From Nitrospira sp. (GTDB lineage Bacteria > Nitrospirota > Nitrospiria > Nitrospirales > Nitrospiraceae): a stretch of DNA of 64,000 nt. The stretch is taken from positions 1,054,001 through 1,118,000 of the forward strand of contig CP126123.1 in the NCBI GenBank assembly GCA_030123605.1, read 5' to 3'. The notes below the pieces were generated by a model. That model ran no database searches. It was not told the origin of the DNA and saw only the letters and a program-made list of their open reading frames with translations. Below, in pieces: positions 2,328-44,982 of the stretch (positions within the stretch are counted from its first letter, which is position 1; every line of letters starts with the position of its first letter). Both the position numbers and the translations under genes were made by a program.

Positions 2328-3044
2328 TCAGCCCACATCGATCAATTCCGGCTTCAACAGCACCACGTCTTTCGAGATCGGTTGCCGGAAATTCATGCGG
2401 CAATAGCAGCCGTAGGTCACATAGGTATCTTGCAAGCAATAGAGGGCGATCTCTTTCCCCTGCCCCTCGGCCCACATCTGCGCCACCTGGGATCCGCTCC
2501 CTGATTTGGTCTCAACGTTCAACGCCCGCGCCAGGACATCCAGCTTCACCCACCCGCGATTGTCCCAATTGCTCCAAATCGCCATCGTGTCGTAGACCGG
2601 TTCCGCCCGGAACCTGGCCAGACTGATCTCCATGGTCGGCTTCACCTGATGGATGATCGAACGTTTCTTGATGAAGGGCAGGTCGAAATTGAGTCCGTTG
2701 TGGGTGATGAACAGCGAGGGGCGGAGCTGCCCGAGGTGGCTCCAGAACCCGCGCAACAGTTCGCGCTCATTGCCACCGTACCAGGACATGGCGCCGCGCG
2801 GTTCGAGGTTGTCCGTAAACTCCAGTAGACCGATGCAGACGATCCGGCTGAAGGTCCCGTCGAAGGAGGATTTCTCGTACAGCTCCTCGTCGAGCCGCTG
2901 CCGCTCCTCCGCTGCTCCGACCGCAAACAGATCTCCGCCGCTCTCGTCGAATACCCGGTCGCCCGACAGAAGCTCACGCCCGGCCAAACGCGCCCACTCC
3001 TCTCTGGGGGCCTGCACGGTTTCGATGTCGAGCACCACCTTCAT
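2328..3044 (-). CDS. Predicted 3'-5' exonuclease of the PolB-like DEDD family
   Basis: A 238-residue protein with the layout of the PolB-associated exonuclease family (COG3298 type). ExoI is visible as LDIET with D6 and E8. ExoII is THNGLNFD near residue 130. ExoIII is ALYCLQD near residue 205. These acidic residues bind the two metal ions that hydrolyse single-stranded DNA or RNA 3' ends. No polymerase domain is attached. It lies directly downstream of the Nudix hydrolase gene (6-base gap) and of mutY on the same strand, consistent with a DNA-repair operon, though its substrate is not shown by sequence. Confidence 0.8.
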   Translation of the reverse strand: MKVVLDIETVQAPREEWARLAGRELLSGDRVFDESGGDLFAVGAAEERQRLDEELYEKSSFDGTFSRIVCIGLLEFTDNLEPRGAMSWYGGNERELLRGFWSHLGQLRPSLFITHNGLNFDLPFIKKRSIIHQVKPTMEISLARFRAEPVYDTMAIWSNWDNRGWVKLDVLARALNVETKSGSGSQVAQMWAEGQGKEIALYCLQDTYVTYGCYCRMNFRQPISKDVVLLKPELIDVG

Positions 3045-3050
3045 AAGCCC

Positions 3051-3452
3051 CTATGCGCCGCCCTGTTGAAGTGCCGCAATGACCGTCCGGTCGGCTGAAG
3101 GGAACTCGAACGAGTCCATCTCATGCGGATAGACCCATCGAAGCTCCGCGCAGTCCAACGCGATCGCCTCACCCGCCTCGATCCGACATCGAAAAAAATG
3201 CAACTCCACGGTCTTCTCGGGGTAATCATGCCGTACGATCCGGAAGGGAACCGGCACGTCGATACGGATATTCAGCTCCTCCCACAACTCTCGATGCAGA
3301 CAATCCTCCAACGATTCGCCCGCCTCCCGCTTCCCTCCCGGAAATTCCCACAACCCGCCGAGATGCACCCCTGCCTTACGGCGTGTGATGAGATACCGCC
3401 CCTCCCGTACGATCAAACCAGCCGCAACCTCGATGAGCTTCATCTCAACCAT
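3051..3452 (-). CDS. mutT: MutT-like Nudix hydrolase (probable 8-oxo-dGTP diphosphatase)
   Basis: A 133-residue single-domain Nudix protein. The Nudix box begins at GGKREAGE near residue 40 and continues to RELWEEL, matching G-x5-E-x7-R-E-x2-E-E. The preceding WEFPGGK and the N-terminal LITRRK are typical of MutT, which removes 8-oxo-dGTP from the nucleotide pool. It lies downstream of a MutY lacking its own Nudix-like domain and upstream of an exonuclease, so a shared role in handling oxidised guanine is likely. An in-frame ATG three codons downstream (3443) is an equally good start. Confidence 0.85.
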   Translation of the reverse strand: MVEMKLIEVAAGLIVREGRYLITRRKAGVHLGGLWEFPGGKREAGESLEDCLHRELWEELNIRIDVPVPFRIVRHDYPEKTVELHFFRCRIEAGEAIALDCAELRWVYPHEMDSFEFPSADRTVIAALQQGGA

Positions 3453-3559
3453 TCGACCATCCCAATCATCGGAAAAGCGAACCGCTGCCCCATCGGATCA
3501 GGACATCATCGGGCATCCGATCAACGGTGCGATGGTCCCATCGTCGATTCTCAGCAAGG

Positions 3560-4282
3560 TCATTTAGCGCCGCCGAACGGGTAGGTCTTGCAGAAGGTCT
3601 TCATCGGGCACAACAGGCAATAGGGATCGCGGGCCGTGCAGACCGTGGCGCCGAAATCCATGATGGCCTGGTTGAAATCGTACCCCTTGCCGCGCGGAAT
3701 CAAGGCCTCGGACAGTTCCCACAATCCGGCCTTCTGAGCCTTCGGATCGCCCTCGGCAATGAAGACGCGATGCAGCACGCGAATCACGTTGGTGTCCAGA
3801 ATGGGAGCGTCCTCATTGAACGCGAACGAGCGAATCGCTCCCGCGGTGTAACGACCGATGCCCTTGAAGGACAACAATTCATCCGGATCGCTCGGCAACT
3901 GTCCCCCGTACCGAGTCACCGTTTCACAGGCGATGCTGTGCAGCCGTTCGGGACGGATGTTGTATCCCAACGGATACCAGGTTTGCTTCACTTCCGCGAC
4001 CGGCGCATCGGCCAGTTCTTCGAACGACGGATACCGTTCCAGGAACTCATGGTACTTAGGAATCACACGATCGACCTGCGTCTGTTGCAGCATCACTTCC
4101 GACACCAGGATGTGGTAGGGATCGGAGGTCTTGCGCCAGGGCAGGTCGCGCCCATGCTCCTTGTACCACTTCAACAGTCGTTGCTGAAACCGCTGTTTCT
4201 GGCCGCGCGCAAGCGAGACGGAAGGTTTCGACGACTTTTTCGCACGGCGTGAAGATTTCTGAACGCGAGACTTCGTAGGCAT
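3560..4282 (-). CDS. mutY: A/G-specific adenine glycosylase MutY, short form
   Basis: A 240-residue DNA glycosylase that removes adenine mispaired with 8-oxoguanine. Visible are the HhH-GPD core with SEVMLQQTQV (catalytic Glu62), the helix-hairpin-helix FKGIGRYTAGAI at about 139-150, catalytic Asp163 in ILDTNVIR, and the 4Fe-4S loop C215-x6-C222-x2-C225-x5-C231. The protein ends nine residues after the last cysteine, so it lacks the C-terminal Nudix-like domain that recognises 8-oxoG in typical MutY (about 350 aa). The N-terminal 25 residues are rich in Lys, Arg and Ser. A related short-form glycosylase with a different mismatch preference is possible. The next gene downstream encodes a stand-alone MutT. 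Confidence 0.85.
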   Translation of the reverse strand: MPTKSRVQKSSRRAKKSSKPSVSLARGQKQRFQQRLLKWYKEHGRDLPWRKTSDPYHILVSEVMLQQTQVDRVIPKYHEFLERYPSFEELADAPVAEVKQTWYPLGYNIRPERLHSIACETVTRYGGQLPSDPDELLSFKGIGRYTAGAIRSFAFNEDAPILDTNVIRVLHRVFIAEGDPKAQKAGLWELSEALIPRGKGYDFNQAIMDFGATVCTARDPYCLLCPMKTFCKTYPFGGAK

Positions 4283-4422
4283 AACCGGTCGCGACGAGTG
4301 GCGGCATTCTAAAAGGCAGGGAGGTGAAAATCAAACCGTATGAGAAGAGCACAAGGCGGAGCCGCCGGAATCCGACCGATCAGCCCCGCCTGTGAACCCC
4401 CTCCACCCATCACCGAGAGCGA

Positions 4423-4788
4423 CTATTGAGGCGCGGCTTGCACCTTGGTCGCTTCCTTGACCGGCGGATCGATCAGAATGTTGGGACCCTGAACTTTCGG
4501 GAGGAGTCCGGCGCCGGGCTTCTCCAGAAGGCGCTGGTTCTGATCGTTGATCGACAACTTTTGCGACACATGGCCGTCATCGAAGGCGGCCGCCTTGTTA
4601 AGGGCGGAATCCCCCGTCCCATTGGCACGGCCCGGGTCGTTGGCGAGCGGCTGCCCCTTGACCGGATCGATCGCCTTCCCCATCGGGTAACCGGGATGTT
4701 CCGGCAGCATGGCGGGATTGCCGAACGCCACGGCGGCGACCAGCAGTCCGGATACAATGAACAGGCTTGCGAACAGTGAAGGTTTCAT
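4423..4788 (-). CDS. Secreted small protein of unknown function
   Basis: A 121-residue protein with a clear signal peptide: MKP, then a hydrophobic core over residues 4-20, with likely cleavage after AFG. The mature part is hydrophilic, rich in Pro, Lys, Asp and Gln, and probably mostly unstructured. The start at 4788 is fixed by a near-perfect ribosome-binding site, GAGAAGGAGG, 7 bases upstream; an earlier in-frame ATG lacks one. No family recognised. It stands alone between mutY and a 500-base intergenic stretch. Confidence 0.7.
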   Translation of the reverse strand: MKPSLFASLFIVSGLLVAAVAFGNPAMLPEHPGYPMGKAIDPVKGQPLANDPGRANGTGDSALNKAAAFDDGHVSQKLSINDQNQRLLEKPGAGLLPKVQGPNILIDPPVKEATKVQAAPQ

Positions 4789-5315
4789 GGCGAGACCTCC
4801 TTCTCGTGGTGAAACAACGACGTCCTTCGGCATCACAACCGAGAGGGCGCAGGAGAGGCGCGTATGGAAGAGGAAGAGTCAAGAGGAAACGTAGATGGGC
4901 GAAGAGGCATTACCCCGGTTTCATACAAGCCTCCAGGACTTCCTTCCAGCTTGCCTTCCGGTGAACGGGACAGTCAAGCCCACGTGACTCGGCACTGAGC
5001 GCCGGTTGACAGACACTCGGACGGACCCATCGACTGAATGAATGCCGCAATGAGGCCGGGTCAGTGCCCTAGGAATCCTCCCAATTCCAAATGGCCGGAG
5101 ACGTTATCCTGATCGCACCCGGTTCCACGATATGGTATGTCCTTTTCCCGGCAGGCTGCGTTCGCACTTGTCGCTTGTCGTTGGTCAGGCACCTCGTGAG
5201 GCAACTTCCGGGACCTCGACGGCGCCCTTTGAGATTCGGCCCATGAATCACCCGCACCACAAGAGTTCCACCGCATCGAATCACGACTCCCGTCTGCAGA
5301 GGATACAGAACCGCA
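4789..5315. other. Long intergenic stretch without a supported gene
   Basis: About 530 bases between a secreted-protein gene on the minus strand and a PilZ gene on the plus strand. Several reading frames cross it, including one of nearly 200 codons on the minus strand, but they overlap the PilZ gene, are Arg-rich and have no ribosome-binding sites. No RNA family or strong hairpin was recognised. Confidence 0.4.
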
Positions 5316-5627
5316 ATGCGCATGAAGGTTCATTATCGGGTATCGCTCTCGAACACCTCCGCCACCGCCGGCGAAGGGCTGTTGTTGGACCTTTCGGCGG
5401 ATGGCTGCCGGATGGAATGCACAGACCCTCCGCCGGTCAACACCTACCTCTCGTTGAGAATTGTAGTGTCGCCCGCCGACACACCGATCCTCGTGGACCT
5501 TGCCGCAGTACGGTGGTCCGTTGAAAAGGCATGCGGTATTCACTTTCTCTCCGTCCGGCCGCCGCAAGCCGAGCGTCTGAATAAATTTCTCGCCTCGCAG
5601 AGATCGCCCGCCTCGGACAAGCGCTGA
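5316..5627 (+). CDS. PilZ-like domain protein
   Basis: A 103-residue protein resembling a minimal PilZ domain, the beta-barrel that binds cyclic di-GMP. Seen are an N-terminal Arg-containing stretch (RMKVHYR) and the second signature DLSADGC at about residues 25-31, matching (D/N)-x-S-x-x-G. The first signature is not a clean RxxxR, since the two arginines are six apart, so c-di-GMP binding is uncertain. The C-terminus has the hydrophobic and Arg pattern of the last PilZ strands and helix. The window also holds two HD-GYP proteins of the same signalling network. Confidence 0.6.
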   Translation: MRMKVHYRVSLSNTSATAGEGLLLDLSADGCRMECTDPPPVNTYLSLRIVVSPADTPILVDLAAVRWSVEKACGIHFLSVRPPQAERLNKFLASQRSPASDKR

Positions 5628-5709
5628 ACGGGTAAGCGGAGCACCGGATGGCCGGTCCACACTCGCTCGGCCTCGCCGGCAACGTCATTTGCCGTCGATG
5701 ATTTCCGAG

Positions 5710-5738
5710 TTGACCGTGTCGAAGAGGCTCTGTAGGAT
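5710..5738 (+). promoter_or_regulatory. Putative sigma-70 promoter for the DUF2235 gene
   Basis: TTGACC at 5710-5715, a 17-base spacer and TAGGAT at 5733-5738. Transcription would start near 5745, giving a leader of about 45 bases to the ATG at 5791. Confidence 0.5.
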
Positions 5739-5790
5739 TTCGTCATCCGGACTGCCTGCTCCGACGGCATTTTCAGGAAAGGAGCGACCC

Positions 5791-6843
5791 ATGTCCAAAA
5801 ACATCATCGTCTGCACCGACGGCACCTGGGACCATCCCGATTCTAAGAACCCCGACGCAGGCACGACAGCGGATGAGACGAATGTCTTCAAGTTCTTCGC
5901 CCTTCTGCCGGGTGAAGCCCAAATCCGCCCCGCCGGCGCGCGTATCAAATCGATCGAGGGGCAAACCGTTTTTTACGACGACGGTGTGGGGGCCGATGGG
6001 ATATGGGCGGTGCGAGTCGTCGAAGGGGCGACCGGAACCGGTTTGGAGCTCAAGCTGCAAGCCGGATATCGATTCGTGAGTGAACAATACGAAGAGGGCG
6101 ATCGGATCTACCTGTTCGGATTCAGCAGAGGCGCCTACACCGCCCGCAGCATCGGAGGAATGTTGACCAGGTGCGGCGTGCCGGCGCGGCAGTTACTGAA
6201 CGATACCTTCGCGAGCCACGCCTTCGACGTCTACCGCCGCGACAACGACGCCGTGACGGCTCAATTCCGCAAGGATTATCAATGCCGGGACGTGTCGATC
6301 GAAGTCATCGGCGTGTGGGACACGGTGGGTGCGCTCGGTATCCCCCTCATTCTCTTTAGCGGCCTCGACCACCTGCTGTTCAGTTTCCACGACACTTCGT
6401 TACACCCGAACGTCCGCTTCGGCTACCATGCCGTCGCGATCGATGAGAAGCGGGAAAGTTTTCAGCCCACCCTCTGGGCTCCGCGTGAAGGCGTCGAGCA
6501 GGTGTGGTTCGCCGGAGTCCATGGCGACATCGGCGGCGGCTATAAGGAACCGGGGCTGTCCAACGTGACACTCCGATGGATGCTCGATAGGGTGCAACCC
6601 CATGGTCTGTTGTTCAAGAACGGCACCTTTACCAAGGATGGAACCGCCACGATCACGGGCGATCCCCTCATGGAGCCGATGCACGATTCCTATAAGCCGC
6701 CGTTCATCACCCTTCACCCCTCGGTGCGCACGATCCCTCCCTCCGCGCCGTTGCATGTCAGCGTGCAACAACGGTTGGAGAAGGCGAATCCCGAATACCG
6801 GCCGACAAACCTGCCGCCGGAACCACGCACATACGTTGAGTAA
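5791..6843 (+). CDS. DUF2235 family alpha/beta hydrolase (Tle1-like phospholipase fold)
   Basis: A 350-residue protein of the DUF2235 family, which includes type VI secretion lipase effectors (Tle1) and many uncharacterised hydrolases. It begins with the family hallmark VCTDGTWD at residues 7-14 and has the nucleophile elbow GFSRG at 110-114, with Ser112 the likely nucleophile. Further Asp and His residues (VWDTVGA; FAGVHGDIGGGY) fit the family triad. The start at 5791 follows GGAAAGGAG. There is no signal peptide and no VgrG, PAAR or immunity-type neighbour, so a housekeeping hydrolase role is as likely as an effector role. Confidence 0.8.
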   Translation: MSKNIIVCTDGTWDHPDSKNPDAGTTADETNVFKFFALLPGEAQIRPAGARIKSIEGQTVFYDDGVGADGIWAVRVVEGATGTGLELKLQAGYRFVSEQYEEGDRIYLFGFSRGAYTARSIGGMLTRCGVPARQLLNDTFASHAFDVYRRDNDAVTAQFRKDYQCRDVSIEVIGVWDTVGALGIPLILFSGLDHLLFSFHDTSLHPNVRFGYHAVAIDEKRESFQPTLWAPREGVEQVWFAGVHGDIGGGYKEPGLSNVTLRWMLDRVQPHGLLFKNGTFTKDGTATITGDPLMEPMHDSYKPPFITLHPSVRTIPPSAPLHVSVQQRLEKANPEYRPTNLPPEPRTYVE

Positions 6844-6994
6844 TAGGACTCGATAGCCCCAGTTCGGCGGTTTTTTCCCTTGCCTTTTCCGCGTCGCTCT
6901 TGCATGCTGGCCCCCGCCCGTGTCCCGGACGGAGCGGGCGAATCCCAGGTCGGCTCAGGAGAAATCCCGAAGCTCCTCTGTGAGGAAAACCCCG

Positions 6995-7612
6995 GTGACC
7001 GAAGACAATCAGTCTCGACGGATCGACGTGCTGGCAATCGGCCTCTTCGGCCTGGCGGTGGGTGCCTTGACCTTGGGGGTCGGTCAACTGGGTTGGATTC
7101 CACACAAGAACCTGGTCGGAGCGCTGGTGATCGCACTGATCTTCGGCGGGGTCGTGCAGCTTCTGGCCGGGATCACCGACATTCGCTACAATGAACAGCT
7201 GGGCGGCACGGCCCTGACGATGTACGGATTCCTCTGGCTCACCCTCTGCACCGTCAAACTCGTGAGCGCCAGCACCACCTTTCGATTCGACAATGTCCTC
7301 TACGCCCCGATCGATTTGGTCTATACCGTCTTCTCGGCCGTCATGGTCTATCTCACGGCCTATCGGACCCTCACCCTCAGCGCCCTCCACGTCATCATCA
7401 CCCTGACGTTGCTGACGACCACGTTCGCCCGTTTGGATTTCATCGGCGAACTGTTGCCCGGGATCGGGCACATCATCGTGGGATTGATGGCCTTCTACCA
7501 TGCGGTCGGCAGCTTGACCCAGGCCTTTACCGGCAACGCTCTCCTTCCGCTCGGCCCACCCCTGTTGCACCACCAGGCAAAACCGCTGCATTCGATCGCC
7601 AAAGTGGTGTAG
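6995..7612 (+). CDS. Acetate uptake transporter family protein (YaaH/SatP, GPR1/FUN34)
   Basis: A roughly 205-residue membrane protein with about six hydrophobic helices. The segment AGITDIRYNEQLGGTALTMY at about 60-80 corresponds to the family block around AGMWE...FGATAFSSYG. The N-terminal NPAPLGL-like signature of succinate-acetate channels is replaced by VLAIGLFGLAVGA, so substrate specificity is uncertain. A GTG start at 6995 is preferred because GAGG lies 8 bases upstream; an ATG at 6920 would add a hydrophilic Ser/Arg-rich extension. It converges on the SDR gene with a 20-base gap. Confidence 0.75.
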   Translation: MTEDNQSRRIDVLAIGLFGLAVGALTLGVGQLGWIPHKNLVGALVIALIFGGVVQLLAGITDIRYNEQLGGTALTMYGFLWLTLCTVKLVSASTTFRFDNVLYAPIDLVYTVFSAVMVYLTAYRTLTLSALHVIITLTLLTTTFARLDFIGELLPGIGHIIVGLMAFYHAVGSLTQAFTGNALLPLGPPLLHHQAKPLHSIAKVV

Positions 7613-7619
7613 CAGGTCG

Positions 7620-7644
7620 GCCGACTACGCCGTTACCAGTCGGC
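7620..7644. terminator. Possible bidirectional terminator hairpin between convergent genes
   Basis: GCCGACT at 7620-7626 pairs with AGTCGGC at 7638-7644 around an 11-base loop. It lies between, and slightly into, the ends of convergent genes. There is no U-tract, so it is a weak candidate. Confidence 0.25.
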
Positions 7645-8352
7645 GCCGATCCTGTCCACCACGATCTGATGTACCGTCGCCTGCGGTCCGAGGCAGGCCA
7701 GGTACAATGCGGTCTCAGCGATGTCGAAGGGATCGATCTTTTCACTGCGCGCCCGTTCGCCTGCCGTTGCATCCGTCAACTCATCCGCCACGCCTCCGGG
7801 ACAAATCGCACTCACCTTGATGTGGTAGGCACGGCCCTCGTCCGCGAGCGATTTGCTCATGGCCATGATCGCATGTTTCGAGGCGCTGTAGGTCCCGGTC
7901 CCGCTCCAGGCCTGCACCCCCGCCACACTCGACATGTTGATGATCGTCCCGCCTCCCTGTTTCTTCATCTGCGTGAATCCTGCCCGGCAGCAGAAAAACG
8001 TCCCGCGCACATTGATGTTCATCACCTCGTCGAAGGCCTCGGTGCCGGTCTCGGCCATCCGGCGGCCGCCGAAGATTCCGGCGTTGTTCACAAGGATGTC
8101 GAGGCGCTGAAACCGCCGGACAGTTTCGGTGATGAGCCGTTCCACCTGCGACTCATCCGCGATGTCCGTCTGAATCGGCAAGGCGATCCCCCCGGCAGCC
8201 TGAATCTGGGCGACCGTTTCCTCGCATTTGTAAAACCGTCGGGCCGCCACCACCACCGTCGCCCCTTCGCGGGCGAACCGCAGCGCGATGGCCTTGCCGA
8301 TCCCGCTGCTGCTGCCGGTGACGACCGCAATTTTACCCTTCAGCCGCTCCAT
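7633..8352 (-). CDS. Short-chain dehydrogenase/reductase (SDR)
   Basis: A 239-residue classical SDR. The NAD(P) site is TGSSSGIG at 12-19 and NNAG at 89-92. The catalytic set is Ser141/142, Tyr155 in TYSASKH and Lys159. Arg38-Arg39 after the second strand favours NADPH. The C-terminal VDRIGADW differs from the acyl-carrier reductase FabG ending, so the substrate cannot be assigned. The ribosome-binding site GAGAGGTGAGTC supports the ATG at 8352. It lies downstream of a hybrid kinase gene on the same strand, separated by 34 bases. Confidence 0.85.
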   Translation of the reverse strand: MERLKGKIAVVTGSSSGIGKAIALRFAREGATVVVAARRFYKCEETVAQIQAAGGIALPIQTDIADESQVERLITETVRRFQRLDILVNNAGIFGGRRMAETGTEAFDEVMNINVRGTFFCCRAGFTQMKKQGGGTIINMSSVAGVQAWSGTGTYSASKHAIMAMSKSLADEGRAYHIKVSAICPGGVADELTDATAGERARSEKIDPFDIAETALYLACLGPQATVHQIVVDRIGADW

Positions 8353-33552: not shown

Positions 33553-34359
33553 TTATGGAAGAATCGCAATGATCCGGACAGGCGCGCCGGTACCGCCTGC
33601 GATTTTCATCGGCAGGGCCACAAGGATGGCGCCGGACGGAGGGAGCTGATCGAGTCGCGCGACATTTTCAAGGCCGTACAGACCGGCTCCACCCAGGATT
33701 CGATGGACCGGAAAATCCTGGGAGGGACCATAATCGATGCTGGGCGTATCGATCCCGACTCCGTGAATGTGTCGTTCGATGACCAGAAACTCGGCGGCCT
33801 CCTTCGAAAATCCCGGAAAATGAAGCGTGGTCGAAACATCCGGCGTGGCACTGCCGAAATACCGCTCACGATCCTTCCAGTCGGCGCCCATGCCCGTCAG
33901 TATCATGACGATGGCTCCCGCCGGTATGGTTCCATGGTCGGCCTCCCAACGATGAAGATCTGCCGCGGATAGGCGGTAGTCGCGATCGCCTGTTACGGCC
34001 GCCCGCACATCGATCACCACGGCCGGTCCCATCAAACGCTCGACCGGAATCGCATCGATGGCGGCTTGTCCCTGCGCGAAGTGAATAGGAGCATCCATAT
34101 GGGTTCCGGCATGTTCGGAGAGAGCCACTTCTCCTGTAGCATACCAGTCTTGGGTCTTTGTCCCGCCCTGCACCATGGAGTCCCGGTGGAAGGGGCGATT
34201 GTTCGGCCACACCTGCGTGGTCTCATCGAAGGTATGGGTGAGGTCGACAAGCCGCTGCCCGGCCGTCGCATCACCCCAGCCATTTACTCCGGTCAGCAGG
34301 ACGAAGAGGATCACCGGCAGAGAACCGGTCGCATGGTGAGCGTTGTATCGTCGTTCCAT
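33553..34359 (-). CDS. Cyclase-family metal-dependent hydrolase, exported
   Basis: A 268-residue member of the cyclase family (PF04199), which includes kynurenine formamidase KynB. The metal-binding motif is H83-x-GTH87-x-D89-APxH93-F. An N-terminal signal (residues 11-25 hydrophobic, likely cleavage after ATA) predicts periplasmic location, unlike cytoplasmic KynB. No tryptophan-catabolic genes are nearby, so the substrate (amide or lactone) is open. The ATG at 34359 has AAGGAGAAAC upstream. Confidence 0.82.
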   Translation of the reverse strand: MERRYNAHHATGSLPVILFVLLTGVNGWGDATAGQRLVDLTHTFDETTQVWPNNRPFHRDSMVQGGTKTQDWYATGEVALSEHAGTHMDAPIHFAQGQAAIDAIPVERLMGPAVVIDVRAAVTGDRDYRLSAADLHRWEADHGTIPAGAIVMILTGMGADWKDRERYFGSATPDVSTTLHFPGFSKEAAEFLVIERHIHGVGIDTPSIDYGPSQDFPVHRILGGAGLYGLENVARLDQLPPSGAILVALPMKIAGGTGAPVRIIAILP

Positions 34360-34480
34360 GGCTCTGTTTCTCCTTGCGGCCAAGCCGCGCCTGTCTGCAA
34401 TGTAGGCCGCCGGAGACTACCGGCCTGGACGCGAATACGGTACGCTTACTCGCTTTGCGACTGCAACCTCGGAGCACGCC

Positions 34481-35662
34481 ATGTCTTCTCGTACAAGTCA
34501 GGAATGCGAGCTTCAATTCTCAGGACAGCGTTTTTCGGTGGAGTACCTCATTCGCGGGTCGGCGACGGACGCACGTGAGCGTGCCAAACTGCTCTGCATC
34601 GAGCAGACCCTCGAGGCGGCCGACCATGTCATTCCTCCCGGAGCGATCAGAGACCATCTCCTCGGCCAGGTGACGAAACTGGAGTCCGCGAGCGCCGAGC
34701 AGCACCAAGCCGTGATCAGTTTTCCGATCGAGCTCCTGGATGGTTCCTTGAGCACCCTCCTCCACATGACCTTCGGTATGGCAAGCTTGCAGGGGCAGGT
34801 CCGCGTCGCGAACCTCTCGCTGCCGGACGAAGTCGTCGCTCGGATGGCAGGTCCCCGCTTCGGGGTACAGGGGCTTCGTGCTCTCCTGCAAGTCCCCCGA
34901 CGCCCGTTGGTCTGTGCCGTGTTGAAGCCGCTCGGGTTTTCCCCGCGGCAACTGGCGACGCTGGCCCGGGACTTCGCACTCGGTGAGGTCGATCTGATCA
35001 AGGACGACCAAGCCCTCGGCGACCATGCCTTTTGCCGGTTCGAGGAACGGGTCGCACGATGCGTGGAAGCCGTCGCCGAAGCCTCACGTCGCACCGGAAA
35101 ACGTTGTCTGTACGCGCCGCACATTTCCAGTCCCTGGCCGACCATGGTCGAACGGGCCATCCTGGCGCAGAAGGCCGGTGCCGGCGCCCTGCTCGTCTGT
35201 CCGGGCCTCGTGGGTTTTGACGCCATGGCTTCCCTGGCAGACCTCCCGCCGCTCGCCCTTCCCCTTCTTTCACATCCGGACTTTCTCGGGAGTCACTATG
35301 TGTCTCCGGACAGCGGGATCGCCCCTTCGGTCCTGTTCGGCCTCCTTCCCAGGCTGACCGGCGCCGACATCTCCATCTATCCCACCTTCGGCTTGAACTA
35401 TCCCATCTCACGGGAAGACTGCCGGCAGATTGCCGTCTCCTGCCGTCGACTGCTCGGCCCATGCCGGCCCATCTATCCGACGGCCGCCGGGAGAATGGCC
35501 CAGGCCCGTATTCACGAGATGGCAACCTTCTATGGCCAGGACCTGGTCTACATTCTAGGCAGCGACCTGCGACGGGATCCGCCCGGTATCCGCTCCGCTT
35601 GCTTGAAGTTCCTCCGTCTGGTCGAGGAAGAAAGCCGTTCGTCCCGACAAAGTGAGCGATAA
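34481..35662 (+). CDS. RuBisCO-like protein (form IV RuBisCO large-chain homologue)
   Basis: A 393-residue protein with the RuBisCO large-chain fold. GPRFGVQGLRALL (124-136), then CAVLKPLGFS (145-154) with Lys149 in place of active-site Lys175, and VDLIKDDQ (170-177) with Lys174 matching the carbamylated Lys201. The second active-site Lys177 is Leu151, Glu204 is Gln177, and the loop-6 GKLEGE block is replaced by PTFGLNYPIS. It therefore cannot carboxylate RuBP. Known form IV proteins act as enolases or isomerases in methionine salvage or related sulfur pathways; none of those genes is adjacent. GGAGC precedes the ATG. Confidence 0.88.
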   Translation: MSSRTSQECELQFSGQRFSVEYLIRGSATDARERAKLLCIEQTLEAADHVIPPGAIRDHLLGQVTKLESASAEQHQAVISFPIELLDGSLSTLLHMTFGMASLQGQVRVANLSLPDEVVARMAGPRFGVQGLRALLQVPRRPLVCAVLKPLGFSPRQLATLARDFALGEVDLIKDDQALGDHAFCRFEERVARCVEAVAEASRRTGKRCLYAPHISSPWPTMVERAILAQKAGAGALLVCPGLVGFDAMASLADLPPLALPLLSHPDFLGSHYVSPDSGIAPSVLFGLLPRLTGADISIYPTFGLNYPISREDCRQIAVSCRRLLGPCRPIYPTAAGRMAQARIHEMATFYGQDLVYILGSDLRRDPPGIRSACLKFLRLVEEESRSSRQSER

Positions 35663-35703: not shown

Positions 35704-35757
35704 CTGTTGTCCTGACGACAGGTCCGAGACTTCGCATGTACGAGAGAGGTGACTGCT

Positions 35758-37110
35758 TTGTCTCACAGGTCAGACGATCCGTCCAAGATCGAGACAGCCG
35801 GGGCCCTTACCGTCCGTCCGGAGTCTCTTCGTGTCGGCATGTATGTCGACCTGAATTGTTCCTGGTTCAAACATCCCTTTCCGCGACGATCGTTCAAAAT
35901 CACCTCGCAGAATCAGATCAATACGATCCGTGGTCTCGGGCTGACGACGGTGCTGGTCTACCCACGGGAGTCGGATCCGGAAACGAATGATGAGGCGCCC
36001 GCCTCCTCCCCTTCAACGGCAGAATCGACCTCCGACACGATCCCGAAAACGGGATTGGGCGACCCATCGATCGACCAGGCATCATCGTCGACAGACGTGC
36101 CCCTCCCGACTCACGGTGATTACCAACAGGCGGTCGAACTGGCATCCGAAGCCTATCGGCAGGTGATCCATCACAGCACGCAGATGATGCAAGACCTCTG
36201 CAACGGCTCACAGGAGGGATTGCGCAGCGCGAAGGTGATGATCGGCGGGATCAACAGCCTGTTGACCCATACCGAAGCGGCAGGGACGGTCGCCAGCGCT
36301 TTCAACCCCGAAGACATCGACAATGTCGCCGTGCTCCATGCCCTCAACGTCGCGACCCTTTCGATGATGGTCGCCCAACATTTCGACATCACACGCGACA
36401 GGATACAGCTGATCGGCATGGCAGGGCTCTTACTCGATATCGGCGAGCGGCACCTCCCCCGCCGCATCCTCCGAAACCGATCCCATCTCTCCCAACTGGA
36501 AATCATGGAATACCAGCACCATCCCTACCTTTCGGTGGACATACTCAGACAATATCCAGGATTCCCCGAAGAAGTCCTGGACATCATCCGCAGCCACCAC
36601 GAACGGCTGGACGGGTCCGGGTATCCGGAGAAACTCAAGGGCGACCAGATCTCGCTTCCGGCCAGAATCGTCGGCGCCGTCGGGCACTACGACGCGCTCA
36701 TCAACCACATCGATCCGGAGCAGGCCGTCTCACCAGCAGAGGCCCTGGCCAGGATGTACAAACATCAGAAGCACCTGTTTGCGTCGGACGTCGTCGTGGC
36801 CATGATTCAGAACTTCGGTGTGTATCCCCCGGGAACCGTGGTCGTCCTTTCCGAGGGCTCTCTCGGACTCGTACTCAATATCAACTTCGAAGCCAGACTC
36901 AAGCCCCTCGTTCTGATCTACGATCCGGACGCATCGAGAGACCATCCTCCCACGGTCGACCTCTCGTCGGACTCCAAGCCCACCATCGTCCGCGCCATGC
37001 CTCGCGCCGAGTTGCCCCGCCACGTGATCGATTATTTCCATCTCAAACGTTGGACCGGCTACTTCATCCAATCCTCAATGCAGACCGTTCGGGACGAAAC
37101 GGCTGCCTGA
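35758..37110 (+). CDS. HD-GYP-like protein with degenerate HD motif
   Basis: A roughly 450-residue protein. The N-terminal part (RVGMYVDLNCSWFKHPF...ITS) matches the DUF3391 domain common in front of HD-GYP phosphodiesterases. The HD-GYP domain covers about 190-340 and keeps an early His (VLHAL), HHERLDGSGYP and other features, but the HD pair is LD (LLLDIGE) and the usual Lys after DIG is Glu. Loss of a metal ligand predicts weak or no c-di-GMP hydrolysis. A TTG start at 35758 is preferred because GAGAGGTGA lies 5 bases upstream; a GTG three codons earlier overlaps that site. A 100-residue C-terminal extension follows. Confidence 0.82.
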   Translation: MSHRSDDPSKIETAGALTVRPESLRVGMYVDLNCSWFKHPFPRRSFKITSQNQINTIRGLGLTTVLVYPRESDPETNDEAPASSPSTAESTSDTIPKTGLGDPSIDQASSSTDVPLPTHGDYQQAVELASEAYRQVIHHSTQMMQDLCNGSQEGLRSAKVMIGGINSLLTHTEAAGTVASAFNPEDIDNVAVLHALNVATLSMMVAQHFDITRDRIQLIGMAGLLLDIGERHLPRRILRNRSHLSQLEIMEYQHHPYLSVDILRQYPGFPEEVLDIIRSHHERLDGSGYPEKLKGDQISLPARIVGAVGHYDALINHIDPEQAVSPAEALARMYKHQKHLFASDVVVAMIQNFGVYPPGTVVVLSEGSLGLVLNINFEARLKPLVLIYDPDASRDHPPTVDLSSDSKPTIVRAMPRAELPRHVIDYFHLKRWTGYFIQSSMQTVRDETAA

Positions 37111-37161: not shown

Positions 37162-39354
37162 ATGGCCGAACCACGCATCCTCCTCGTCATTCCGCCGTTG
37201 ACCCAGCTGAATACGCCCTATCCTTCGACCGCCTATCTCACCGGATTCTTACGTTCCCGCGGCTACGATGCCGCGCAGGCGGACCTCGGCATCGAGATGG
37301 TGCTGCGTCTCTTCTCACGGCCGGGACTGGAACAGGCGTTTCAGCGTATCAGAGGAGCGGGTACGCCGTGGCGCGGAGAGGTCCGACAATTTCTTGCGCT
37401 TGAAGAGACCTATCTCGCAACCATCGATCCGGTGATCGCGTTTCTTCAGGGGCGAGATCCGATGCTGGCACCGCACCTCGCCCGCCCTGGCTTTCTTCCG
37501 GAGGGACCACGTTTTGCCGTTCACGGCAGGCCTGAACCTGGACCGTTCCCTTGGTCGACCTCCGACGCAGCCCGGCACCGCGCCACCCTCTACATTGAGG
37601 ACCTCACCGACCTGCTCCACGAAACCGTGGCGCCCCACCTGTCTTTGAACCGGTATGCCGAACAGATCATGCAGTCCACATCGTCGTTCGACCGGATCGA
37701 GCAGGCGCTCGACCAACCATTGACCCTCACCGATGAGCTGCTGCTGGATATGCTCTGGTCCCATATCGAACGTACCGCACCGAACCTGGTCGGACTGACC
37801 GTCCCGTTTCCCGGCAATCTCTTCGGCGCATTGCGCATTGCGCAGGCGCTGAAAACCGCGCGACCGGATATCACCCTGGTCCTCGGCGGCGGTTACGTGA
37901 ATACGGAATTGCGGCGGGTGAAAGATCCGCGGCTGTTCGACTATGTGGACTACGTCACGCTCGACGACGGCGAGCGACCGCTGCTCTGTCTCCTCGACCA
38001 CCTGAGGGGCGGACGTCCGGATGCATTGCTCTGCAGAACCTTTCTCCGCGCGAACGGCACAGTGATATTTCGAGACGGCAATACCGAGCCGGACCCGCCC
38101 ATGCAGGACCTCGGCACGCCGACCTATGTCGGATTGCCGCTCCAACGTTATCTCTCTATTCTCGACAGTCTCAACCCGATGCATCGGCTCTGGTCGGAAG
38201 GCCATTGGAACAAGTTGACGGTCGCCCACGGCTGTTATTGGAAACAATGCACCTTTTGCGACGTGGGGCTGAATTACATCGCCCGGTATGAGGCGACCCC
38301 GACCGATGTGCTGGTGAAGCAAATCGAGGCCCTCATTCAAGAAACCGGACAGAGGGGTTTTCATTTCGTCGACGAGGCCGCACCGCCCGCCGGGCTGAAG
38401 GCCCTCGCGCTTCGCCTGCTCGAACAGGGGCTGACCATTTCCTGGTGGGGCAATATCCGGTTCGAAGAAGCCTTTTCTTCCGACCTCGCCAGGCTGTTGG
38501 CGGCGTCCGGTTGCATCGCCCTCACCGCCGGACTCGAAGCGGCATCGGATCGATTGCTCGAACGGATGAAGAAGGGCATCACGGTAGATCAGACGGCACG
38601 GGTGGCGGCAGCCTTTCGCCAAGCCGGCATTCTGGTCCATGCCTATTTGATGTACGGCTGCCCCGGCGAGACGATTGCCGATACGGTGGATTCGTTGGAA
38701 CGGGTCCGGCAACTGTTTGCGAACGGATTGCTGCAATCCGCCTTCTGGCACAAGTTCACCGCCACGGCACACAGTCCCATCGGGCTCAATCCTGCAGCGG
38801 AGGGGATCACCATCCTCGGACCGACCTTCGGAGGGTTTGCCGAAAACGATCTCCGCCACGCCGATTCCACCGCCACCTGCCCTGCTTGGCTTGGCGAAGG
38901 GCTGCGTGCGGCATTGCTCAATTACATCGAACAGGCAGGACTGGACCTCCCGGTGCAACGCTGGTTCTCGCAGGCGGTGAAACCGCCCAAGGTGCCGAGA
39001 ACCTGGCTGAAGAAGGCGCTGACCTCTTCCTCATCTCCACCTCTCACAGCCGAACGGCGCTGTGTCTGGATCGGCGGCACCCCCCTGCTGATGACATCCG
39101 GAACAGCACGAGCCAGAGTCATTCTGCCGACCAGGGTAGAGGATTTCTCGCTCAGCCTCGCGCCACATCACGCCGCTTGGCTGATCACGCTGCTTCGGGA
39201 ATCGACCCCCGGCCCCCACCGGACCACCGGTGAGTATCCGCGCTTGGCCGCAACGCGCAACAACTTTCCCGCCACCGGCGCTCGGGGCTTCGATCGGTTC
39301 AGCACCAGCCGGGCCTGGTCCACTATCCGCCGGGCAGGCCTGCTGTTGGTATGA
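37162..39354 (+). CDS. B12-binding-domain radical SAM protein with C-x4-C-x2-C motif
   Basis: A 730-residue protein. The N-terminus (ILLVIPPLTQLNTPYPSTAYLTGFLRSRG in part) and the segment NLVGLTVPFPGNLFGALRIA...VLGGGYV resemble the cobalamin-binding half of COG1032 proteins. The radical SAM core starts at HGCYWKQCTFC with Cys358, Cys363 and Cys366, giving x4 instead of x3 between the first two cysteines. Downstream GFHFVDEAAPP and YLMYGCPGET fit the SAM-binding barrel. No DxHxxG cobalamin motif was seen, so B12 may not be bound. The C-terminal 150 residues are unique. The substrate is unknown; such proteins often act in methylation or methylthiolation. Confidence 0.75.
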   Translation: MAEPRILLVIPPLTQLNTPYPSTAYLTGFLRSRGYDAAQADLGIEMVLRLFSRPGLEQAFQRIRGAGTPWRGEVRQFLALEETYLATIDPVIAFLQGRDPMLAPHLARPGFLPEGPRFAVHGRPEPGPFPWSTSDAARHRATLYIEDLTDLLHETVAPHLSLNRYAEQIMQSTSSFDRIEQALDQPLTLTDELLLDMLWSHIERTAPNLVGLTVPFPGNLFGALRIAQALKTARPDITLVLGGGYVNTELRRVKDPRLFDYVDYVTLDDGERPLLCLLDHLRGGRPDALLCRTFLRANGTVIFRDGNTEPDPPMQDLGTPTYVGLPLQRYLSILDSLNPMHRLWSEGHWNKLTVAHGCYWKQCTFCDVGLNYIARYEATPTDVLVKQIEALIQETGQRGFHFVDEAAPPAGLKALALRLLEQGLTISWWGNIRFEEAFSSDLARLLAASGCIALTAGLEAASDRLLERMKKGITVDQTARVAAAFRQAGILVHAYLMYGCPGETIADTVDSLERVRQLFANGLLQSAFWHKFTATAHSPIGLNPAAEGITILGPTFGGFAENDLRHADSTATCPAWLGEGLRAALLNYIEQAGLDLPVQRWFSQAVKPPKVPRTWLKKALTSSSSPPLTAERRCVWIGGTPLLMTSGTARARVILPTRVEDFSLSLAPHHAAWLITLLRESTPGPHRTTGEYPRLAATRNNFPATGARGFDRFSTSRAWSTIRRAGLLLV

Positions 39355-44112: not shown

Positions 44113-44158
44113 AGATGTCACGACATTGTCTTGACATCAAATGATTATTGAGCTATCT
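44113..44158 (+). promoter_or_regulatory. Promoter and operator of the DUF1778-GNAT toxin-antitoxin pair
   Basis: TTGACA at 44130-44135, 17 bases and TATCTT at 44153-44158 form a near-consensus promoter. An inverted repeat, GATGTC (44113-44118) and GACATC (44132-44137), overlaps the -35 box, fitting repression by the antitoxin. Confidence 0.6.
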
Positions 44159-44182
44159 TCGGCGGCAACGAGAGGTGACGAG

Positions 44183-44491
44183 ATGCCTGCACGTGCGGTT
44201 CGTACCGAGAAACTGGATCTTCGGCTGAGTGCCTCCGATAAGCGGATACTGGAAGCTGCCGCCTCCGCTTCCAGTCGATCGGTGAGTGACTTTGTCCGTG
44301 AAAGTGCTCTGGCCCGTGCCGATGAGACTCTGGCAGATCGCCGCACCTTCCTCCTGAACAAAACGAAATGGTCTGAGTTTCAGGCTGCCCTCGACGCTCC
44401 GGTCCGCTCCCTCCCTCGCATGAAGAACCTAGTGACTGAGCCAGGATTCTTTGACGCCGCCCCTACTCCCGGCACGATTAAAAAGCGTTGA
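44183..44491 (+). CDS. DUF1778 antitoxin (TacA-like)
   Basis: A 102-residue protein with an N-terminal ribbon-helix-helix: KLDLRLSASDKRILEAAAS and RSVSDFVRESAL are the DUF1778 hallmarks. The C-terminal half wraps the toxin in known TacAT structures. The start at 44183 follows AGAGGTGACGAG. The toxin gene overlaps its stop by 4 bases. It represses its own promoter in characterised systems, consistent with the inverted repeat upstream. Confidence 0.85.
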   Translation: MPARAVRTEKLDLRLSASDKRILEAAASASSRSVSDFVRESALARADETLADRRTFLLNKTKWSEFQAALDAPVRSLPRMKNLVTEPGFFDAAPTPGTIKKR

Positions 44492-44982
44492 CTCGTACGA
44501 TCGAAAAACTTCAACCGCATCACGCCGTTGAAGCATTCGACTGTGGGCAGGACGCACTTAACCGCTTTCTCCTGAAGCACGCGCTGCAGAATCAACACAG
44601 CGGAGGATCGCAGACTTACGTGGGGTTGGCCGATGGAACCGTAATCGGCTACTACACGCTTGTGGTGGGCTCAGTCGAGCAAGATCATGCCCCAGAGCGA
44701 ATAAAGAAGGGGCTGGCCAAACATTCCATTCCCATCATGCTGCTGGCCAGGTTAGCCGTCGATCTCCGCTGGCAGAAACAGAGGGTCGGCGCCGCGCTAT
44801 TGAAAGACGCGATGCTCCGTACTTTGCAGGCTGCCGATATTGCAGGAATTCGTGCCTTGGTGGTGCATGCCAAAGATGAGGATGCCAGAAACTTTTATGA
44901 GCGCTTCGATTTCCTCCCTTCACCCAGCGATCCGTTACACCTCTTCATTCTTCTCAAAGATGTTCGGAAAATCGTCTCCTAA
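44488..44982 (+). CDS. GNAT-family acetyltransferase toxin (TacT-like)
   Basis: A 164-residue GNAT protein of the type paired with DUF1778 antitoxins, which acetylate aminoacyl-tRNA and stop translation. Visible are FDCGQDALNRFLLKHA at about 18-33, the acetyl-CoA loop RLAVDLRWQKQRVGAALL at about 89-106, and the C-terminal YERFDFLP with the conserved Tyr. The start is TTG overlapping the antitoxin stop (TTGA), so translation is coupled. Confidence 0.88.
   Translation: MTRTIEKLQPHHAVEAFDCGQDALNRFLLKHALQNQHSGGSQTYVGLADGTVIGYYTLVVGSVEQDHAPERIKKGLAKHSIPIMLLARLAVDLRWQKQRVGAALLKDAMLRTLQAADIAGIRALVVHAKDEDARNFYERFDFLPSPSDPLHLFILLKDVRKIVS

Follow-up and report, generated by a model that had tools for sequence, protein, structure and literature searches.

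A RuBisCO-like protein (RLP) encoded in a 64,000-nucleotide stretch of a Nitrospira genome (the whole stretch is referred to here as the window) is best, if tentatively, read as a remodelled descendant of the 5-methylthioribulose-1-phosphate (MTRu-1-P) 1,3-isomerases and as an enolase or isomerase, altered from that ancestor, whose present substrate is a 5-substituted ribulose-1-phosphate. Its nearest relatives are encoded in mtnK-mtnA-transketolase-RLP operons or are linked to a cupin, so that ancestry points to MTRu-1-P. By alignment, the distinctive changes in the protein are the replacement of N123 by Met, Thr or Ile, of His204 by Gln, of N241 by His and of G381 by Arg, and these are fixed, or nearly so, in the clade of Nitrospiraceae RLPs. 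Positions such as K175 and K201 follow spinach RuBisCO numbering; residues of the window RLP carry its own numbers.

The gene is an open frame whose product matches the Pfam family RuBisCO_large at 72 bits against a cut-off of 30, and whose closest solved structure is 3qfw of R. palustris (E 2e-52). It is the sole match to the RuBisCO family in its own genome, a single contig of 4,316,411 bases. Comparison with other members of the genus gives dN/dS of about 0.13 (0.08-0.19 in most comparisons, and 0.27 with the nearest member), a sign of purifying selection, so the frame is neither a chance one nor decaying. An AlphaFold2 model built from five sequences had a mean pLDDT of 60 and fell below 50 over most of its C-terminal half; site geometry and fold searches were therefore not based on it. 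The gene and its key residues are as follows.

34481..35662, forward strand (+): RuBisCO-like protein, 393 aa, recognised from the open reading frame, Pfam, structure match, tree and alignments
34778..34780, forward strand (+): M100, equivalent of N123; Met, Thr or Ile in the Q204 clade and Asn in transketolase- or cupin-linked RLPs except L065 (alignments)
34925..34927, forward strand (+): K149, equivalent of K175, invariant (alignments)
35000..35011, forward strand (+): K174-D175-D176-Q177, with the equivalents of K201 and D203 kept and E204 replaced by Gln (alignments)
35120..35122, forward strand (+): H214, equivalent of N241; Asn or Ser in relatives (alignments)
35492..35494, forward strand (+): R338, equivalent of G381 at the phosphate site; Gly in relatives, with Arg in all 36 members of the clade (alignments)

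When the window RLP is aligned with form I enzymes, MtnW and other RLPs, K149 falls at K175, K174 at K201, D176 at D203 and H265 at H294. Missing from the RuBisCO set K175/K177/K201/D203/E204/K334 are K177, where a one-residue gap after P150 is followed by L151, E204, and K334, where loop 6 is replaced and approximately N306 is found; the Gly-Gly pair at 403-404 reads GS. RuBisCO forms I-III are homologous in the catalytic domain, but the window RLP also departs from them at N123 and G381, and, judged from its residues and known chemistry, it cannot fix CO2. An earlier reading of the sequence alone had matched K149 and K174 to the active-site lysines K175 and K201, had noted the loss of K177 (as L151), the change of E204 to Q177 and the replaced loop 6, and had denied the protein carboxylase activity; the alignment agrees on each point, residues essential for carboxylation being missing. 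The emphasis placed on these losses as distinctive did not hold up, because the same losses occur in known methylthioribulose isomerases; 3qfw likewise is without K177 and E204, and has His at 204.

A maximum-likelihood tree of RLPs (LG+F+R4; supports are SH-aLRT/UFBoot) unites MtnW and an isomerase branch at 100/100, the two being sisters. The isomerase branch, which includes the window RLP and the R. palustris RLP1 type, is supported at 84.6/93, and its other members are cupin-linked Nitrospirota RLPs and a 3qfw group with the cupin-linked Terrarubrum. The RLP1 group joins a transketolase-linked branch at 97.8/90; this latter branch has moderate support (62.8/92) and takes in the RLPs of rhizobial plasmids and all those of Nitrospiraceae, its Nitrospirota part being recovered at 88/97 and its Nitrospiraceae part at 99.3/100. 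A FastTree run with fewer references again placed the window RLP by the isomerases. RLP1 of R. palustris has been shown to be an MTRu-1-P 1,3-isomerase, with a kcat of 1.3 per second (PMC5893883), and 3qfw is taken, from its length and branch, to be this protein. The window RLP resembles R. palustris RLP1 and R. rubrum RLP (form IV-DeepYkr) in branch, in K175/K201/D203/H294, in the one-residue gap at K177 and in length, and is about 36-45% identical to the transketolase-linked RLPs, its nearest branch. The sequence-only reading had suggested that the substrate may be new and had looked to a phylogeny of form IV proteins; the window RLP falls near a group of known reaction, the MTRu-1-P isomerases, whereas its genome is without a complete salvage pathway.

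Where MTRu-1-P isomerases have N123, KDDH, N241 and Gly-Gly at 380-381, the window RLP has M, KDDQ, H and GR. The changed residues thus include ones that these isomerases keep, so that substrate and reaction both could have changed, and the present reaction has probably shifted from the ancestral one. The 36 clade members all share K149, K174, D175, D176, Q177, H265, G337 and R338, and 35 of them have H214, whereas 17 transketolase- or cupin-linked RLPs have invariant N123, His204 and Gly381, with N241 in 16. Intermediate states persist: L080 has T123 and S204; L083 has M123 and Q204, retains N241 and has His at 381; and L082 has M123, Q204 and R381, again with N241 retained. The other sampled clade members carry all four substitutions. 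As read from these sequences, the four substitutions were gained stepwise, alongside loss of the transketolase. An RLP that groups with R. palustris 3qfw (L065:677-1759) combines M123 and Q204 with retained N241 and Gly381. Because it lies outside the clade, the first two changes arose together twice, and this independent pair suggests that substitutions at 123 and 204 may be coupled.

The gene arrangements of the relatives are the basis for the proposed ancestry. In the Nitrospirota loci L081, L088, L089 and L090, the two halves of a split transketolase (TK_N and TK_C) and the RLP are encoded contiguously, in the order TK_N-TK_C-RLP, adjacent genes lying a few bases apart or overlapping by as little; L081, in which the arrangement is still present, comes from the same bacterial family as the window. 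On alphaproteobacterial plasmids, rhizobial and related (L183, at 2686-8110, L184, L185 and L188), the order is mtnK-mtnA-TK_N-TK_C-RLP, next to a sugar ABC transporter; this operon is a candidate for an undescribed route of methylthioribose salvage. The Vibrio locus L186 reads TK_N-TK_C-RLP-kinase, and L187 reads mtnA-oxidoreductase-TK_N-TK_C-RLP. The last, on a Ponticoccus plasmid (L187:1-8047), encodes in full a nucleoside phosphorylase, an amidohydrolase, mtnA, a molybdopterin oxidoreductase, TK_N, TK_C and the RLP, and looks like a nucleoside-derived route. A literature search, which is weak evidence because subscription papers were mostly beyond its reach, found no account of an RLP with a transketolase in methylthioribose salvage, or of the Nitrospira RLP.

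At a threshold of E 1e-60, 14 of the 375 phylum genomes have a TK_N match (G286, G279, five of family f15 and seven of f18), and 13 of these carry an RLP of the transketolase-linked branch, which, counted outside the Q204 clade, is present in 16 genomes (hypergeometric p about 2e-20, uncorrected for relatedness). TK_N proteins from across phyla share 49-62% identity with the TK_N of L081, and in f18 (L197, L200) TK_N and TK_C form a single fused protein of about 680-720 aa. Both TK_N and TK_C score below every cut-off of the NCBIfam equivalogs. The halves keep the TPP motif and the catalytic Glu, and the SGHPG and HDS histidines of canonical transketolase are replaced, which suggests that the donor of the split enzyme may differ from the canonical one. 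In the cupin-linked relatives, a 127-aa cupin adjoins the RLP (L091, L092 and L098) or is fused to its C-terminus (L094, L095, L096 and L106, of the Nitrospirota family f29), a pairing that fits the isomerase and methylsulfurylase of the MTA-isoprenoid shunt.

Within the window's own genome, mtnA (455.7 bits against a cut-off of 279) and mtnP (335.7 against 274.85) are both present, and MtnP and MtnA are predicted to supply the RLP's ancestral substrate. Since mtnA is present in 374 of 395 genomes of the phylum, with or without an RLP, it lends no specific support here, and its co-occurrence with the RLP is uninformative. The absence of sulfur-salvage context claimed by the sequence-only reading stands for the adjacent genes but not for the genome, which has mtnA and mtnP, nor for the nearest clades, with their operons and cupins. 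Searches of the genome found no acireductone dioxygenase (ARD). Unlike form IV-DeepYkr, the window RLP has no partner methylsulfurylase-like cupin, either beside the gene or detected elsewhere in the genome, where cupin hits were weak and generic; the better of these (L107) was rejected because its frame is without the metal-binding histidines. None of the 14 genomes with TK_N at E 1e-60 belongs to the genus, and the two transketolases of the window's genome are both full length. Searches of this genome gave no candidate for the step that would follow in any known salvage route; coverage of MtnB-like and Ald2-like enzymes was through the class II aldolase family, whose sole match is a 706-aa frame resembling a fusion of aldolase and dehydrogenase. 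A class II aldolase was rejected as a replacement for the RLP, for it is present in the RLP-less G115, G085 and G110 but also in the RLP-bearing G055 and G208, and is missing from the RLP-less G027.

In the ancestral route, MtnP or MtnK, together with MtnA, would yield MTRu-1-P, which the RLP would convert to 1-methylthioxylulose-5-phosphate. The split transketolase, a thiamine enzyme, would then cut this ketose between C2 and C3 to give glyceraldehyde-3-phosphate and a two-carbon methylthio unit, from which methanethiol is probably lost. In the Nitrospiraceae, the transketolase would have been lost and the active site of the RLP rebuilt. The window RLP most likely retains enolisation of a mono-phosphorylated ribulose of the Lys175/carbamyl-Lys201 type, with 5-methylthio- or 5-deoxyribulose-1-phosphate, formed by MtnP and MtnA, as candidate substrates. 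Given changed proton delivery (no N123, and neither Glu nor His at 204) and a changed phosphate grip (Arg338), the product may differ. All of the Nitrospira steps, and the transketolase chemistry, we infer. Against a remodelled isomerase, the RLP gene has no salvage gene beside it in the window's lineage.

Ranking close behind the altered isomerase or enolase is the possible, though on balance doubtful, reading that, once the transketolase was lost, the RLP took on as its substrate a sugar phosphate unconnected with MTA or 5'-deoxyadenosine metabolism, with Arg338 and Gln177 defining the site. The four substitutions lie at catalytic or phosphate-binding positions and are family-wide, the methylsulfurylase-like cupin, the split transketolase and ARD are all missing downstream of the isomerase, and the gene stands outside any salvage operon, all of which would suit a new substrate. 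Yet the makers of the ancestral substrate, MtnP and MtnA, are still encoded, and no sugar-catabolic neighbour hints at an alternative. The neighbours named by the sequence-only reading were confirmed, with a third gene following them.

33553..34383, reverse strand (-): Cyclase-family (PF04199) hydrolase, a divergently oriented neighbour; adjoins the RLP in this genus and in a single related one only, and is placed outside the system
35749..37110, forward strand (+): HD-GYP protein with DUF3391; lies between the RLP and the radical-SAM gene in the genus, and is kept in the RLP-less G115
37162..39354, forward strand (+): B12-binding radical-SAM protein; adjoins or lies near the RLP in several genera, and is a family core gene with or without the RLP

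The radical-SAM gene directly follows the RLP in L072, L074, L075, L077 and L085 and follows the HD-GYP gene in the genus, and almost all of the family has it regardless of the RLP. In the RLP-less G115 the order of HD-GYP and then radical-SAM is retained. The shared neighbourhood is thus inherited, and a functional tie between the RLP and the radical-SAM protein was ruled out as evidence. Further along, at 44141-44982 of the window, a small DUF1778-like protein and an overlapping GNAT acetyltransferase resemble, by eye, an ordinary toxin-antitoxin pair.

Members of Nitrospira are major nitrite oxidisers, and the RLP gene is found in 20 of the 21 other sampled members of the genus and is widespread in the family, with absences. 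It has been cleanly lost in G115, and decayed fragments remain in a related genus (G117:C16:284731-285274, G145:C1:1925153-1925578 and G097:C9:219379-219624), so its role is non-essential in those relatives. Such dispensability, the position of a lone gene beside an HD-GYP signalling protein, and the loss of N123, of an acidic or His residue at 204 and of Gly381 would all be compatible with a binding or regulatory protein that keeps the RLP fold and is no longer an enzyme. This is unlikely, however, as K149, K174, D175, D176, H265 and G337 do not vary among the 36 clade members, and such constancy would be difficult to account for if the protein neither catalysed a reaction nor bound a metal. 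Least probable by far is the DK-MTP-1-P enolase (MtnW) of classical methionine salvage, which, although the MtnW enolases are the nearest NCBIfam models and MtnW of B. subtilis and G. kaustophilus shares the RLP fold, K175, K201 and D203 on the sister branch, is rejected by score (192.2 against a cut-off of 409 and 142.7 against 513.6 bits), by a tree that places the window RLP outside the MtnW clade, whose Nitrospirota members occur with mtnX and mtnB, by Met and Gln where MtnW has Lys (N123) and Glu (204), and by a genome without the ARD that MtnW needs downstream. OiaX of apiose catabolism shares the RLP superfamily, but the window RLP scores 100.8 bits against its cut-off of 700.

RLPs are a main view onto the origin of RuBisCO chemistry, and for few of their clades is the reaction assigned. 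The present clade can be traced from an ancestor of known reaction, by way of an operon from which a new partner enzyme is predicted, to an active site rebuilt across a family, and the surviving intermediates L080, L083 and L082 make the functional change testable with present-day enzymes. It is possible, if rather less than probable, that an undescribed branch of MTA and methylthioribose salvage, with an RLP isomerase passing its product to a split, transketolase-like thiamine enzyme dedicated to it, exists in Alphaproteobacteria, Vibrio and Nitrospirota, and that the Nitrospiraceae RLP has outlived its partner and taken up a new reaction through four conserved changes. The wider lead is the transketolase-RLP operon: the transketolase link, if true, would add a further route of methionine salvage, with methanethiol and triose phosphate as predicted products.
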